Part shown: positions 9,892-14,801 of the stretch, piece after piece
How positions within the stretch are numbered: the first letter of the stretch is position 1
Layout of the letters: each line of letters starts with the position of its first letter
Source: a virus
Reading direction: 5' to 3' (one strand)
DNA length: 26,490 bases
Virus record (IMG/VR): IMGVR_UViG_3300035072_000124
Span: 1-26,490 of that record
The notes under the pieces: generated by a model
Databases searched by the model: none
What the model saw: the letters and a program-made list of their open reading frames with translations, nothing else
What the model was told of the DNA's origin: nothing
Translations under genes and position numbers: made by a program

Positions 9892-9960
9892 AGCGAGGCC
9901 GGAAGAAGAGCGACGTAGGAAGGTCGTCTAACCAATAAATTTGGGTGACTTCGCCCTTCG

Positions 9961-10140
9961 TCAAGCCTCGATTTCCTGCAATCGAACGCGCTGCTCAATC
10001 TGCCGCAGGAGCTTCTCCATTGCGGGTGGCAGAGGCTCGGCGACGACGCCTGAAAACATGGCTCGCAAGTGGTCGGCGATAGTCGTGACCCGCGTATTAT
10101 CGAGCAAACGTTGCTTATGAGTTTTGTTATTCGTCAACAC
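9961..10140 (-). CDS. Second NepR-like anti-sigma factor paralogue (59 aa)
   Basis: Residues 20-50 ('TIADHLRAMFSGVVAEPLPP' then 'AMEKLLRQIEQRV') match the NepR core closely: LRAMF aligns with the usual LRAMY, and VVAEPLP with VVxEPVP. The start is taken as the GTG at 10140, with AAGGGAG 9 nt upstream; this gives 59 aa, the typical family length, although the frame stays open to 10200. No EcfG consensus is seen upstream: a GGAAC is present at about 10,191 on this strand but lacks a CGTT at the right distance. A 110-nt structured element lies upstream (10292-10402). It probably binds an EcfG-type sigma factor. Confidence 0.6.
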   Translation of the reverse strand: MLTNNKTHKQRLLDNTRVTTIADHLRAMFSGVVAEPLPPAMEKLLRQIEQRVRLQEIEA

Positions 10141-10291
10141 TGTCCGGTTCTCCCTTTCAGGACATATAATTCCTGAAGCGCGCTCACGGTTCCGCTTCAA
10201 AGACGGAACTGCCCGCGCCTATTCGACGCGGGCCGCCCCCTCCCTCGCGGTATGATCGATCACCGCCGCGCGATTGAGTTCGGAAGTGCTC

Positions 10292-10402
10292 AAAAAAAAA
10301 GGCCCGGCCATTGCTGACAGGGCCTAAGTCTTGATAGAGGCTCGCCACCCGGTCTAGACAGCGAACGACACGAGTGTCGCGCCACGATGGCCGGGGCGTC
10401 AA
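10292..10402 (-). ncRNA. Duplicated structured element, copy A (sRNA or leader with terminator)
   Basis: This 111-nt stretch is about three-quarters identical over its whole length to 11220-11331, although neither copy is convincingly coding. Reading leftward it has a perfect hairpin CGACAC-TC-GTGTCG, a conserved TCTATCAAG segment, and then GGCCC-N14-GGGCC followed by nine T, a strong intrinsic terminator. A segment before the terminator (GCCT...AGGC) could pair alternatively with its 5' arm. It ends about 150 nt before the NepR-like gene at 10140. It could be a small RNA, an attenuating leader or a mobile terminator. The rest of the 10,141-10,482 gap shows nothing else. Confidence 0.5.
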
Positions 10403-10482
10403 ATTCTTTTAGGCAGTAGACGCACATCTTCTCGTGCTGATAGCGTTGCTATCCTAACGCAGAGCACGGGCGCGGGGGTGTT

Positions 10483-10734
10483 GTGTCAATTATCTTTGAG
10501 TTTTTCCGTGAGTCGCCTGACAACGAGCGCATCACTCTCGCGACCGAAAAGAGAAATATCCGGACAGCTGACACCGCGGTATCCTACGCGCGCGGCGCCC
10601 TAAACAATGTTTTGTTTAACGGAGAAATGGCTGACGTCTGCTCAATTAGAACCCAAAAAGGGCTACTAATTTGCGAGGTGAGAAGTGCCGCTCGCCGGCC
10701 GCAAAAGGCGCGGGAAACAATTTCGAGCTTGTGA
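10483..10734 (+). CDS. Small protein of unknown function (83 aa)
   Basis: It starts with GTG ('MSIIFEFFRESPDNERITLA'). The segment 'ARGALNNVLFNGEMADVC' followed by 'SIRTQKGLLICEVRS' resembles small proteins I recall from Bradyrhizobium-like genomes whose function is unknown. The expected fold is alpha/beta with an edge strand at the C terminus. The 3' end overlaps the convergent 140-aa gene by 69 nt, so one of the two C termini may be misplaced or the pair may interfere transcriptionally. It lies between a helical-protein gene and structured element A, breaking up what looks like a duplicated gene-plus-element unit. Confidence 0.55.
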   Translation: MSIIFEFFRESPDNERITLATEKRNIRTADTAVSYARGALNNVLFNGEMADVCSIRTQKGLLICEVRSAARRPQKARETISSL

Positions 10735-11088
10735 TGGGGTGTCGCCCTCATAGCTACCAGAGACAACCACCTTCGTCCTGATTTCATTGGCTGCTTCGCG
10801 AACACATTTTTCAAAGTGTGCGCTCGCAACGCCTTCGTAATTCTTGTTGAGCAAATCCTGCACGCACCGCTCGCAACTCATTAGATACGCGAGTGCCAAC
10901 GGCGGAACGGACTCAATGCTCGTTAGATCGGCCGCCTCTTGCCATTCTCGTTCGAACAATTGGCGCGCAAAACCGGGCAACGCTTCCGCAACGGATGACC
11001 TGAAGAGTTCCCGGAGCTGTCTCGCCGCGTCTTCAAAATGCTCGACGGCTTCACGATTCGGCGGAAGCGAAACTGGACGCAGGTTCAT
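10666..11088 (-). CDS. Helical protein with NepR-like N-terminal segment (140 aa)
   Basis: The ATG at 11088 has GGGAG 6 nt upstream; the frame stays open to 11136, but those residues look non-coding. Residues 18-46 ('FEDAARQLRELFRSSVAEAL' then 'PGFARQLFE') resemble the NepR core (LRxxF, VAExLP), and a longer C-terminal helical domain follows. Its 'HFEKCVREAANEI' matches 'SFNDCAQAALLEI' in the protein at 11328-11681, so the two may be diverged paralogues. The last 69 nt overlap the convergent gene at 10483-10734. It may be an accessory regulator of stress signalling, but this is inference. Confidence 0.55.
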   Translation of the reverse strand: MNLRPVSLPPNREAVEHFEDAARQLRELFRSSVAEALPGFARQLFEREWQEAADLTSIESVPPLALAYLMSCERCVQDLLNKNYEGVASAHFEKCVREAANEIRTKVVVSGSYEGDTPSQARNCFPRLLRPASGTSHLAN

Positions 11089-11219
11089 AATAAGCTCCCA
11101 TGTGGGGGCATGACGCAATGTCGGGCCTTGAAACAATTGTCTAATAGATATCTTAGCTTACACGGAACGGGGAGGCAAGCTTATGTAAGTTCCCTAAGCA
11201 TTGCACGTTGTTTAGCGCT

Positions 11220-11331
11220 AAAAAAAAACCGGCCCCGCCATTGCTGACAGGGCCGAAGGCTTGATAGAGGCCCGCCGTCTGTTCCTACAGCGAGCGTCAA
11301 GAGTGTTGCGCGGCGATGGCCGGGCGGTCAA
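11220..11331 (-). ncRNA. Duplicated structured element, copy B (sRNA, 3'UTR or leader with terminator)
   Basis: This copy overlaps the stop codon of the 117-aa gene and reads in the same direction. Near its 5' end, the hairpin seen in copy A reappears with a changed but still paired base (CAA...TTG against CGA...TCG). It ends with CGGCCC-N14-GGGCCG plus nine T, a strong intrinsic terminator. GGGCC and GGCCC upstream of the terminator could form a competing hairpin that shares the terminator's 5' arm. It could be the 3' end of the 117-aa mRNA, a processed small RNA, or a leader of the 140-aa gene that starts 132 nt further on. Confidence 0.5.
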
Positions 11332-11681
11332 TCCTCTTTCACCGGGCGGAACGCCACAACGTTGTCCTCGTCATCGCCGATCGCAGCCTTTATTTCGAGC
11401 AGAGCGGCTTGGGCGCAGTCATTGAATGACCGATCGGCTTCCCGCTTAAATGCTCCAGCCATCGCCGCACAGGCGCTTTGGAAATGTGTCCGCACGATTT
11501 CCGCCAAGGCGTTCACCTCGCCGTCATCGTCGGCATTCATCGCCGCTTCAAGCGCGCGCCGCTGGAAGGGCGCCAGCCGATCGTAAATCGCACATTCGAA
11601 AGACGCGCGAAGCATCCGGTCGGCGACAATCCATTCGTCAACGGCCGGCTCAATAGTGCGGCGTGTAGGCGTATCCGTCAT
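11328..11681 (-). CDS. Acidic helical protein of unknown function (117 aa)
   Basis: The ATG is preceded by AGGAG at 8 nt. The protein is all-helical and Ala-rich. Its C-terminal half, with 'SFNDCAQAALLEIKAAI', resembles the end of the 140-aa protein encoded next in the same direction. The stop codon falls inside structured element B, so gene and element may be one transcriptional unit ending at that terminator. No catalytic or membrane features are visible. The function is unknown; its position between stress-type regulators suggests a related role. Confidence 0.6.
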   Translation of the reverse strand: MTDTPTRRTIEPAVDEWIVADRMLRASFECAIYDRLAPFQRRALEAAMNADDDGEVNALAEIVRTHFQSACAAMAGAFKREADRSFNDCAQAALLEIKAAIGDDEDNVVAFRPVKED

Positions 11682-11708
11682 CGGTTGGCTCCTAACGTTG
11701 GGAGAAAG

Positions 11709-11897
11709 TCAGGCGGCTCGGCGAGCCGCGGTTTGTGATCGGCGAGCGGCAAGGTCGCGACGATCCTTGGCCACGCGATGCGCATACCGGAGCGCTTCGC
11801 CGAAGGTGTCGAATAGCCGGCGTCGAAAGAGGCTGTGCGCGTAAGTCATGATCTGCGCGCGATCGATTGGCGCGGTTCGCGCAGACGTTTTGCTCAT
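11709..11897 (-). CDS. Small basic protein of unknown function (62 aa)
   Basis: The start at 11897 ('MSKTSARTAPIDRAQIMTYA') is chosen over upstream starts because GGGAG lies about 9 nt before it and the earlier residues look non-coding. The middle, 'AHSLFRRRLFDTFGEALRYA', is the kind of short amphipathic helix pair seen in small unknown proteins of alphaproteobacterial accessory regions. The tail is Arg- and Ala-rich. A TTGACA box with a weak -10 lies about 85 nt upstream. It is followed after 27 nt by the 117-aa gene in the same direction. Confidence 0.5.
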   Translation of the reverse strand: MSKTSARTAPIDRAQIMTYAHSLFRRRLFDTFGEALRYAHRVAKDRRDLAARRSQTAARRAA

Positions 11898-12224: not shown

Positions 12225-12425
12225 CTATTCGTGAAACTTGGATAGGTCTGGAAATCGTGACGCGCGCAGATGGCGCGGCGTGCGAACGAAGCTGATGACT
12301 TGCAATAGACCGATCACTACGCCCGAAAAGAAGCAGGTCGCCACAAACCAAAGGAAGGCGACAACGACGGCCACGCCGATCTGCGCGACGACAGGATATT
12401 CACTGCTGATGTAGCTCATACGCAT
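12225..12425 (-). CDS. Small membrane protein (66 aa)
   Basis: Residues 12-48 ('VVAQIGVAVVVAFLWFVATC' then 'FFSGVVIGLLQVISFV') are strongly hydrophobic and could form one long or two short membrane helices. A basic C-terminal tail follows ('RTPRHLRASRF'). GAGG lies upstream, and either the ATG at 12425 or the one two codons later could be used. It starts 6 nt after the tape-measure stop, so it is in that operon, where tail-completion or lysis genes would usually follow. A holin-like role is conceivable from position and hydrophobicity, but nothing confirms it. Confidence 0.55.
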   Translation of the reverse strand: MRMSYISSEYPVVAQIGVAVVVAFLWFVATCFFSGVVIGLLQVISFVRTPRHLRASRFPDLSKFHE

Positions 12426-12431
12426 TCGCCT

Positions 12432-14801
12432 CTATCGAGTGCCTGCAGGCCCAAACCCAAAGCTCGAATGCAGCGGCGCAGCATGTGGAGCGCCAGCGCC
12501 GCCCGATCTCGTGGGTGCGTTGCCGCCGCCCTGCATGGTTGTTCCGAGCTTCCCGACGAGTTGCATTCGCGCCGATGCGTCCGCGAACCGCCGCTCGATT
12601 GACGCCAAGAACTGCGGACTGGCGTCGACCCGCACATGATTTTCCACGCTGACATGGGCCTCCCCCTGAACGGTTCCTTGAACGGAAATCTCGCGCGGAA
12701 CGGCCCATGTGCTCCCATGCGGTTCGATACCCGGCCATTTGGGTCTGTCAGCCTGAGACGCCGGCAAGCTCGGCAACGGCCCAGCCGAATAGCCGGTGCC
12801 GCTCAATCGGCTGTTGAGCGCGAAACGAGCGCCGTCTGTCGCGCCGCGGAACGCAGATGCGCGAATGATCTCCGCCGTTCCGAACAAACGGTTGAACGCG
12901 CCCTGGCGCGCAGGATCGATCTCCCGCGGCGACCATACGTTGAGCGCTCTAAGATATCGCTCGCGTGCTGCGCGATCGTATTCACCTTGGCGGGACTCGT
13001 CGTAGGCCGAAGGACGAGGTCCACGACGCTTTTCCTCCTGGGCGCGATCGAACAATCTTGCGTCTTCGACCATCAGCTTCGCGACCGTTCCGATCACGAT
13101 CGTCGTGGCAGTCAGAGCGATCCCTTGCGGCGTGAGCAGTCGCGAGAGCAGACCGGCGGTCCTGGCGGTCGCGCCGACCGCGCCCGCAGCGCCGGCGCCT
13201 TGCGCCGCCGTCCCGCCGACACCCAACGCGCCGACCGCTTTGCCGAGCAAGTCGCCGCCGCCCAGACGCGCTGCAGCCGTCTCTAAGGCGACTGCCGCGA
13301 CGTTGAGGTTCGCCGCCGAGACGTTCAATCCGAAGTCGCCACGAAGCGCCTTCAGCACGCCGTCGCCCAAGCGATAAAGCTGGAGGCCCGCGACTCCGGG
13401 AATCCCCACGGGCACAGCGCCGAGCGCCTGCGCGCCCAATGGGTGTTCTTTCTGGAACTGCTGCAGCGAACCGCCTAAAGACGCAACGCCCGATGCAAGC
13501 CCGCTCATGACTTGCGCAGCTTTTTCCATGTTCGGCGCGGTCAAGGTGCCCGCGAAGTCGCCGATCGCTGTCGAGAGCGATTTGGCCGCCGAGATCGGGT
13601 CGCCTGCAGCCGTCTTTAGAGCGCCGTCCACGCCGGCCGCCTGATCGAACAGCGCCATATGACGTTTGAACGTCTGCTCTTGGTTGATGAGCACTTCGGC
13701 GAGGCGCGCGGCGTTGCTGTTCGGGAAGAGGCGCTGCGCCTCTATGATCTGGTCTTCCTTGTCCGTGAAGCCTTTGGCTTTGAGAGCAGGAAGCAGTGTG
13801 GTCCAGACCCATTGGGCCGGATCATGCGCCGCTGCCTCGTGGCCTTGGATGAAATGGCCGGGCAGCAACCCGAGCGCCTTGCCCTTCCCGCTAAATTCAA
13901 TGTCTTTGTCTGTGATGAGCTCGAGATTGCGGAACTCTTCCAAGGCCGGATGCGATGTCGGACCTTTGAGGTTCGACGTGAGCAGCTTGAAAAACGATCG
14001 AATGCCAAGGCCGGCGGTCGACCCGCCGAGTTCCTGCGCCAAACCTGCGGCGGTCTTGTTGAGGAACTGTTCGGACAAGAGCGGCGCGGCGGCGCCGGAG
14101 TATTTCACGACATCGGCAAGCTGTTCGAAGCTGACCGTCTTGCCCATGATCTGAACGGCGCGAACGGCGCCGTCGAGATAGCGCGAGAGCTTTTCAATAT
14201 CCTGCCCAAAGCCGGCGATCTCCGCCGCCTTCAGCATCCAAGGCAAGCCATGCGCCGCCTGCCCTGTCGGATCGCTCTGGAGAACCGCCGCCTCGGTTCG
14301 CGCGACCATCGGCATGACGTGCGCGGCTTCCTCGGGGCTAGGCAGGATCGATCTGACTTCCTTGTAGCGCTCCAGCAGCTTGGTTTGATCCAAGATCGGA
14401 GTCATGCGCTGTAACTGCGCGGCAAGTTCCTTGGCGTGCTCCAATTCCGCGCCACGAATGCCGGCGAGAGTCAGACGGAACTGCTCAGACGTGCGCTCGG
14501 CGCCAAGATGCAGGGACTGCTCCGCCCCATGCAGGATGGCCGGCGACGCTAGCACGGCGACGTTGGACGCGAACTGCTTGGCAGCAACGGCGAGGCGATG
14601 ATAGTTCGACTCGATGCGCGCCAACGCGCGGGCATGGGCGTCCAGCGCCGGATTGTTGAACGCCTTCGCGAGGCCAGATTGAACGCCGAGCCTGTTTAGC
14701 TGATCTGCGATTTTGTGGATTCGCTCCGCGATCTTCGCAAGCTCGGGGCTCGCATGGTCGACCGCGGAAACGGTAGCTGTGATTGACGGGCCGCCGGCCA
14801 T
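12432..14801 (-). CDS. Phage tail tape measure protein (789 aa)
   Basis: The start 'MAGGPSITATVSAVDHASPE' and the long helical, Ala-rich body are typical of P2/Mu-type tape measure proteins, which set tail length and occupy the tail lumen. A hydrophobic region near residues 535-580 ('GIALTATTIVIGTVAKLMV') fits the membrane-active segment of such proteins. At 789 aa the predicted tail would be short to medium. AGGAG lies 7 nt before the ATG. It directly follows the two tail assembly chaperone genes, the conserved order in P2- and Mu-like phages. No tail tube, baseplate or fibre gene follows; the operon ends after one small membrane protein. Confidence 0.85.
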   Translation of the reverse strand: MAGGPSITATVSAVDHASPELAKIAERIHKIADQLNRLGVQSGLAKAFNNPALDAHARALARIESNYHRLAVAAKQFASNVAVLASPAILHGAEQSLHLGAERTSEQFRLTLAGIRGAELEHAKELAAQLQRMTPILDQTKLLERYKEVRSILPSPEEAAHVMPMVARTEAAVLQSDPTGQAAHGLPWMLKAAEIAGFGQDIEKLSRYLDGAVRAVQIMGKTVSFEQLADVVKYSGAAAPLLSEQFLNKTAAGLAQELGGSTAGLGIRSFFKLLTSNLKGPTSHPALEEFRNLELITDKDIEFSGKGKALGLLPGHFIQGHEAAAHDPAQWVWTTLLPALKAKGFTDKEDQIIEAQRLFPNSNAARLAEVLINQEQTFKRHMALFDQAAGVDGALKTAAGDPISAAKSLSTAIGDFAGTLTAPNMEKAAQVMSGLASGVASLGGSLQQFQKEHPLGAQALGAVPVGIPGVAGLQLYRLGDGVLKALRGDFGLNVSAANLNVAAVALETAAARLGGGDLLGKAVGALGVGGTAAQGAGAAGAVGATARTAGLLSRLLTPQGIALTATTIVIGTVAKLMVEDARLFDRAQEEKRRGPRPSAYDESRQGEYDRAARERYLRALNVWSPREIDPARQGAFNRLFGTAEIIRASAFRGATDGARFALNSRLSGTGYSAGPLPSLPASQADRPKWPGIEPHGSTWAVPREISVQGTVQGEAHVSVENHVRVDASPQFLASIERRFADASARMQLVGKLGTTMQGGGNAPTRSGGAGAPHAAPLHSSFGFGPAGTR

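Follow-up and report, generated by a model that had tools for sequence, protein, structure and literature searches.

Two related, terminator-ended RNA elements in a prophage-like contig as candidate sibling small RNAs

We found that a prophage-like contig holds, on its minus strand, two related copies of a structured element closed by a strong intrinsic terminator. Small-RNA-like transcripts are probably made from these copies, which possibly serve as terminators only. The interpretation that we prefer, and to which we give an even chance, is that the copies are 112-nt non-coding 3' RNA modules acting as sibling small RNAs, their transcription, stability and base pairing being deduced from the DNA. 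A first look at the letters without database searches (hereafter the sequence-only reading) had offered an attenuating leader, a pair of sibling small RNAs or a mobile 3' element; the second fits best, with homologues, compensatory changes, three hairpins and a strong terminator in its favor and the transcripts themselves presumed.

Results

The DNA analysed, called the window throughout, is a virus record of 26.5 kb (26,490 nt) with genes for an integrase, a portal protein, a primase-polymerase and a terminase of the GpA type. The terminase shares 94% identity with that of two IMG/VR contigs and 77% identical to that of a Methylocystis MAG, and the most likely host is therefore Methylocystis, a methane-eating genus. 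On the minus strand, the order is X, copy 2, Y, copy 1 and NepR, with copy 1 lying between a divergent small ORF and the NepR gene, as follows.

11328-11681, minus strand: gene X, 117 aa, a small all-helical protein, directly upstream of copy 2
11219-11332, minus strand: element copy 2, its first bases overlapping the stop codon of the 117-aa gene X
11306-11331, minus strand: 5' hairpin P0 of copy 2
11260-11301, minus strand: central hairpin SL1 of copy 2, outer helix CUUGA/UCAAG
11220-11256, minus strand: intrinsic terminator of copy 2, nine U
10666-11136, minus strand: gene Y, 156 aa, a relative of X, downstream of copy 2
10483-10734, plus strand: divergent ORF, 83 aa, overlapping the end of Y; same protein sequence in Methylocystis genome G206
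10439-10453, no strand: perfect palindrome GATAGCGTTGCTATC, a possible operator, separating copy 1 from the divergent ORF of 83 aa
10292-10403, minus strand: element copy 1, 112 nt
10377-10402, minus strand: 5' hairpin P0 of copy 1 (UUG.CGC / GCG.CRA)
10330-10372, minus strand: central hairpin SL1 of copy 1, with CUCUA on the 3' side at 10335-10339 and the outer helix partly broken
10292-10325, minus strand: intrinsic terminator of copy 1, with a stem, a GCAA (GNRA-type) loop and nine U
10141-10291, minus strand: upstream region of the NepR cassette, conserved and also present where the element is absent
9961-10140, minus strand: NepR anti-sigma factor gene, 59 aa from a GTG, downstream of copy 1

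The two copies, which had been put at roughly three-quarters identity, are 83% identical in a global alignment of 111 bases, and a blastn query of the record with copy 2 returned copy 1 at 81% identity (E 1.6e-25), a similarity that we judge to be far beyond chance. Coding was rejected, as the copies differ by single-base indels (one base is missing from the central loop in copy 2 and in the G206 homologue, L096) and no shared frame persists. Both copies carry the segment TCTATCAAG and a strong terminator ending in nine T, and the hairpin position matches between them, with a paired base change in which the closing pair of the terminator goes from A-U in copy 1 to C-G in copy 2. On all these points the sequence-only reading was borne out.

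That reading had also made itself depend on further homologues with covarying stems, and a search by blastn and with a covariance model found both homologues and compensatory changes. By blastn, which covered 298 genomes of the family and 39 of Methylocystis, clear homologues occurred in Methylocystis only, in 4 of the 39 genomes, each with no more than one or two intact copies. Identity was 90-91% to copy 2 in G206 (L096), 86% in G001 (L091), 89% over the 3' half alone in G270 (L097) and 73% in G275 (L098). The covariance model (R2) added G229 (L121, 51 bits) and G311 (L139, 35 bits). The start ATTGACGC and the segment GCGCAACACTC of L139 are the same as in the element and its terminator sequence is different, and over the 5' two thirds it makes a convincing divergent homologue. 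In total, two homologues are full length, one is 5'-truncated, two are decayed and one is divergent. Other matches to the model, which scored about 20-43 bits within Methylocystis and 34-38 bits in further genera of the family, were mostly or wholly terminator and were not accepted; L136, at 42.9 bits, and L128, a terminator-only match, were likewise left out. In phage and plasmid collections, blastn returned only chance matches of 26-37 bases. As a side observation, L098:1090-1878, on a 3.8-Mb contig, carries a 262-aa open frame that starts in what looks by eye like a fragment of an IS110-like transposase, crosses the decayed element and continues into NepR with no stop.

Across eight aligned sequences, standard pairs filled 92.4% of the pair cells of the three hairpins, and sliding the partners by 1-3 columns lowered pairing to 38-50%. 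Double-sided changes affected 7 pairs against a shuffled mean of 3.6 (a count reached by 2/500 shuffles) and the covariation score of the three-hairpin structure was reached by 0/500 shuffles, figures that lean towards structure, as the alignment was partly fitted to the model, the shuffles ignore relatedness and some sequences are decaying copies. The three hairpins are thus supported by compensatory changes. Within the central hairpin, four pairs are altered on one side only between copies 1 and 2, with pairing kept. The outer helix of SL1 is broken at two pairs in copy 1, and the central stem of L139 is an unbroken 12-bp helix. Fold z-scores were -3.2 for copy 2 and -1.5, which is unremarkable, for copy 1.

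We looked at the genes around the copies. NepR inhibits the sigma factor of the general stress response in alphaproteobacteria. A NepR-like gene had been placed after each copy; this holds for copy 1, whose neighbor scores 26.1 bits with Pfam PF18557 (cut-off 25.7), but not for copy 2, as Y had no NepR match and its segment LRxxF..VAEALP, aligned to NepR with hhalign, gave P = 0.026 and a probability of 1.9%. A NepR domain in Y is thus not supported. The NepR cassette occurs in 7 of the 39 Methylocystis genomes, with or without the element, and has a conserved upstream region of roughly 100-150 nt. In the window, this cassette and its upstream region (9961-10291) hold the palindrome TGATCGATCA and GCGGAACC...CTTCAGGAATTATA. 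Two of the seven genomes have an in-frame stop in the cassette, and at some loci a second NepR-like gene lies on the opposite strand.

X and Y belong to one small-protein family, restricted to Methylocystis among the 298 family genomes, with prophage members and chromosomal members of 144 aa; the latter had no element match. The protein model of X has four helices (mean pLDDT 82), and no significant structural match to it was found. The 3' end of an X-type gene mostly lies just upstream of full-length copies, with X intact at copy 2 and as a relic in L091, with a possible short relic upstream of copy 1 and L096. Upstream of copy 1, L096 and L091 there is at most an X coding fragment, yet the element persists there, and L139 follows a Y-type gene. 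In phages L003 and L005 and in G206, X has no element downstream, so X does not always bring the element with it.

The sister phage L003 keeps copy 1 at 99% identity and lacks copy 2, whose spot is filled by an unrelated terminator, AGGCCTCGCCCTCACAGGCGAGGCCT; in G206 the copy-2 spot likewise has this terminator and no element. Neither copy was found in phage L005/L007, and the 18 bases shared with L004 were dismissed as chance. A terminator seems to be needed at the copy-2 spot, given this other terminator in L003 and G206, and plain termination is a serious rival to the small-RNA interpretation. The element would then be a structured 3' UTR with an intrinsic terminator, a cassette insulating prophage genes, with its similarity due to recent cassette exchange. 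We regard this as a real, though minority, possibility. Its terminator loop, CAGCAATG, a tetraloop of the GNRA type with a closing A-U pair, is shared by many Methylocystis terminators, which makes the terminator, taken by itself, ordinary. However, the 75 nt upstream are conserved along with the terminator, compensatory changes are also found in the stem upstream of it, and L139 retains the central stem though its terminator sequence differs.

The element has the sequence traits of a prophage small RNA, being non-coding, structured, conserved with compensatory changes and ended by an intrinsic terminator. In the region 9900-11800, no sigma-70-type promoter was found; the EcfG-type motif (GGAAC N16-17 CGTT) was sought and was neither enriched nor placed at the element. 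For a candidate seed, CCUCUAUCAAG, a complementary stretch that differs at a single base, CTCGATAGAGGC, overlaps with the ribosome-binding site of the gene at 12225-12425. This site is kept in L003 and L007, and the seed variant of L096 matches it at 12/12. Nevertheless, for the window copies only a short core beats shuffled seeds (5/300), and duplex energies at the target for longer segments of copies 1 and 2 were not better than shuffles. At 12428-12439 three features coincide, namely the stop codon of a 789-aa gene, the ribosome-binding site of the gene after it and a stretch complementary to CCUCUAUC of the element, and the conservation of the candidate site may be explained by the overlap with the stop codon of the upstream gene. 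Moreover, CCUCUA is invariant in five close copies and missing from L139, L098 and L121; the supposed seed therefore seems not to be conserved through the family.

An attenuating leader, in which the terminator and a 5' antiterminator segment would compete to set readthrough into NepR (and Y), is very unlikely in our view. The competing hairpin that had been suggested is possible in copy 1, where CCCGGCCAU pairs perfectly with AUGGCCGGG of the terminator 3' arm and this is the minimum-energy fold, but it is not the best fold in copy 2, L096, L091 or L139. Its pairing showed covariation no better than shuffles, and the complementarity beats shuffles only marginally, and does not beat them in L096, L098 or L121. 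The element is not consistently upstream of NepR, and the next ORF after L139 is on the other strand. Moreover, the NepR cassettes of L120, L122 and L123 keep their own conserved upstream region with no element; attenuation of NepR is unlikely because its cassette also occurs without the element.

The third suggestion, a mobile 3' element, proved partly right. The window and G206 are 96% identical over 77 bases upstream of the element and 330 bases of the NepR cassette, and only 83% identical over the element between. Since the G206 element is nearer to copy 2 (90%) within flanks of 96%, this is best explained by replacement through recombination with another copy. The element thus seems to be exchanged as a block between related prophages, and its similarity partly reflects this exchange. 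Homologous replacement is more likely than autonomous mobility, as no transposition features were seen. A short non-autonomous element spread by its own or a borrowed transposase would be compatible with the sharp boundaries of both copies, the absence of copy 2 in L003 and the block replaced at a conserved G206 site. It is nonetheless highly improbable: we noticed neither terminal inverted repeats nor target duplications at the junctions, intact copies are few in the few blastn-positive genomes, and replacement at the same site fits homologous recombination.

Finally, the Rfam scan of the window gave no family at its gathering threshold; the best weak match was suhB (RF00519), found with both copies in register at 23.8 and 17.6 bits, far below the suhB/mmgR gathering score of 41 bits. 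The architecture agrees with this family, with a hairpin, a single-stranded segment (CCUC..AGACUU) and an intrinsic terminator in the same order, but the match is partly the common terminator. The conserved alpha-r8 10-mer, which we take to be UUUCCUCCCU with the Rfam consensus line as a guide, is not present, the aligned segment in copy 1 being GAGCCUCUAUC. In 38 of the 39 Methylocystis genomes, suhB/mmgR matches represent canonical mmgR, separate from the element and with higher scores. Up to eight matches of this type each were seen in G301, G307, G314 and others, some above the gathering score, which suggests that the family is multi-copy in Methylocystis. That the element is a divergent phage member of suhB/mmgR (alpha-r8), sharing its targets or competing for Hfq, is extremely unlikely; it may work in the way of suhB/mmgR, with membership unsupported.

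Discussion

We propose that each module opens with a 5' hairpin, continues with a longer central hairpin in which CCUCUA stays unpaired, and closes with a strong intrinsic terminator. The 117-aa X transcript would have copy 2 as its 3' end, and copy 1 would end a transcript begun in the short stretch that faces the divergent ORF of 83 aa. With each unit closed by its terminator, the gene that follows (Y or NepR) would be expressed from a promoter of its own. The released three-hairpin RNAs would probably be stable and may act as two prophage small RNAs that base-pair with targets in the Hfq-type manner; CCUCUAUCAAG is their likely seed, and a weak candidate target is the ribosome-binding site in front of the 66-aa gene (12225-12425). 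More speculatively, and with little confidence, they could form a genus-specific prophage family lying beside NepR and Methylocystis-only small proteins, in which the RNA is block-swapped while the flanks stay fixed, and RNA and NepR together adjust the general stress response of the host.

Should the two elements be expressed, a methanotroph would have phage small RNAs beside a phage-borne NepR; our literature search returned almost no small-RNA work in methanotrophs. The exchange of the RNA unit within conserved flanks offers a testable case of RNA alleles swapped between prophages. As a terminator cassette and nothing more, the element would be ordinary.

Compared with ordinary Methylocystis intrinsic terminators, the element has the same GC-rich stem, GNRA-type CAGCAATG loop and U tract, but it embeds the terminator in a 112-nt unit, alongside two other conserved hairpins. 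The suhB/mmgR (alpha-r8) siblings include SisA-D in Caulobacter (PMC12559287). Like the element, these combine an alphaproteobacterial hairpin, a pyrimidine-rich single strand and an intrinsic terminator, and sibling copies of suhB/mmgR occur across many genera; the element differs by its low scores against the family model, the missing 10-mer and the host mmgR genes located elsewhere. Phage precedents for such RNAs, DicF, ipeX and StxS, are cut from or end phage transcripts (reviewed in PMC12197685). These too are non-coding RNAs of prophages that lie beside small accessory genes or form their 3' ends, and their own 3' end is terminator-like. Unlike them, the element is present as two sibling copies, with presumed expression and targets, and we claim no sequence relation to them.
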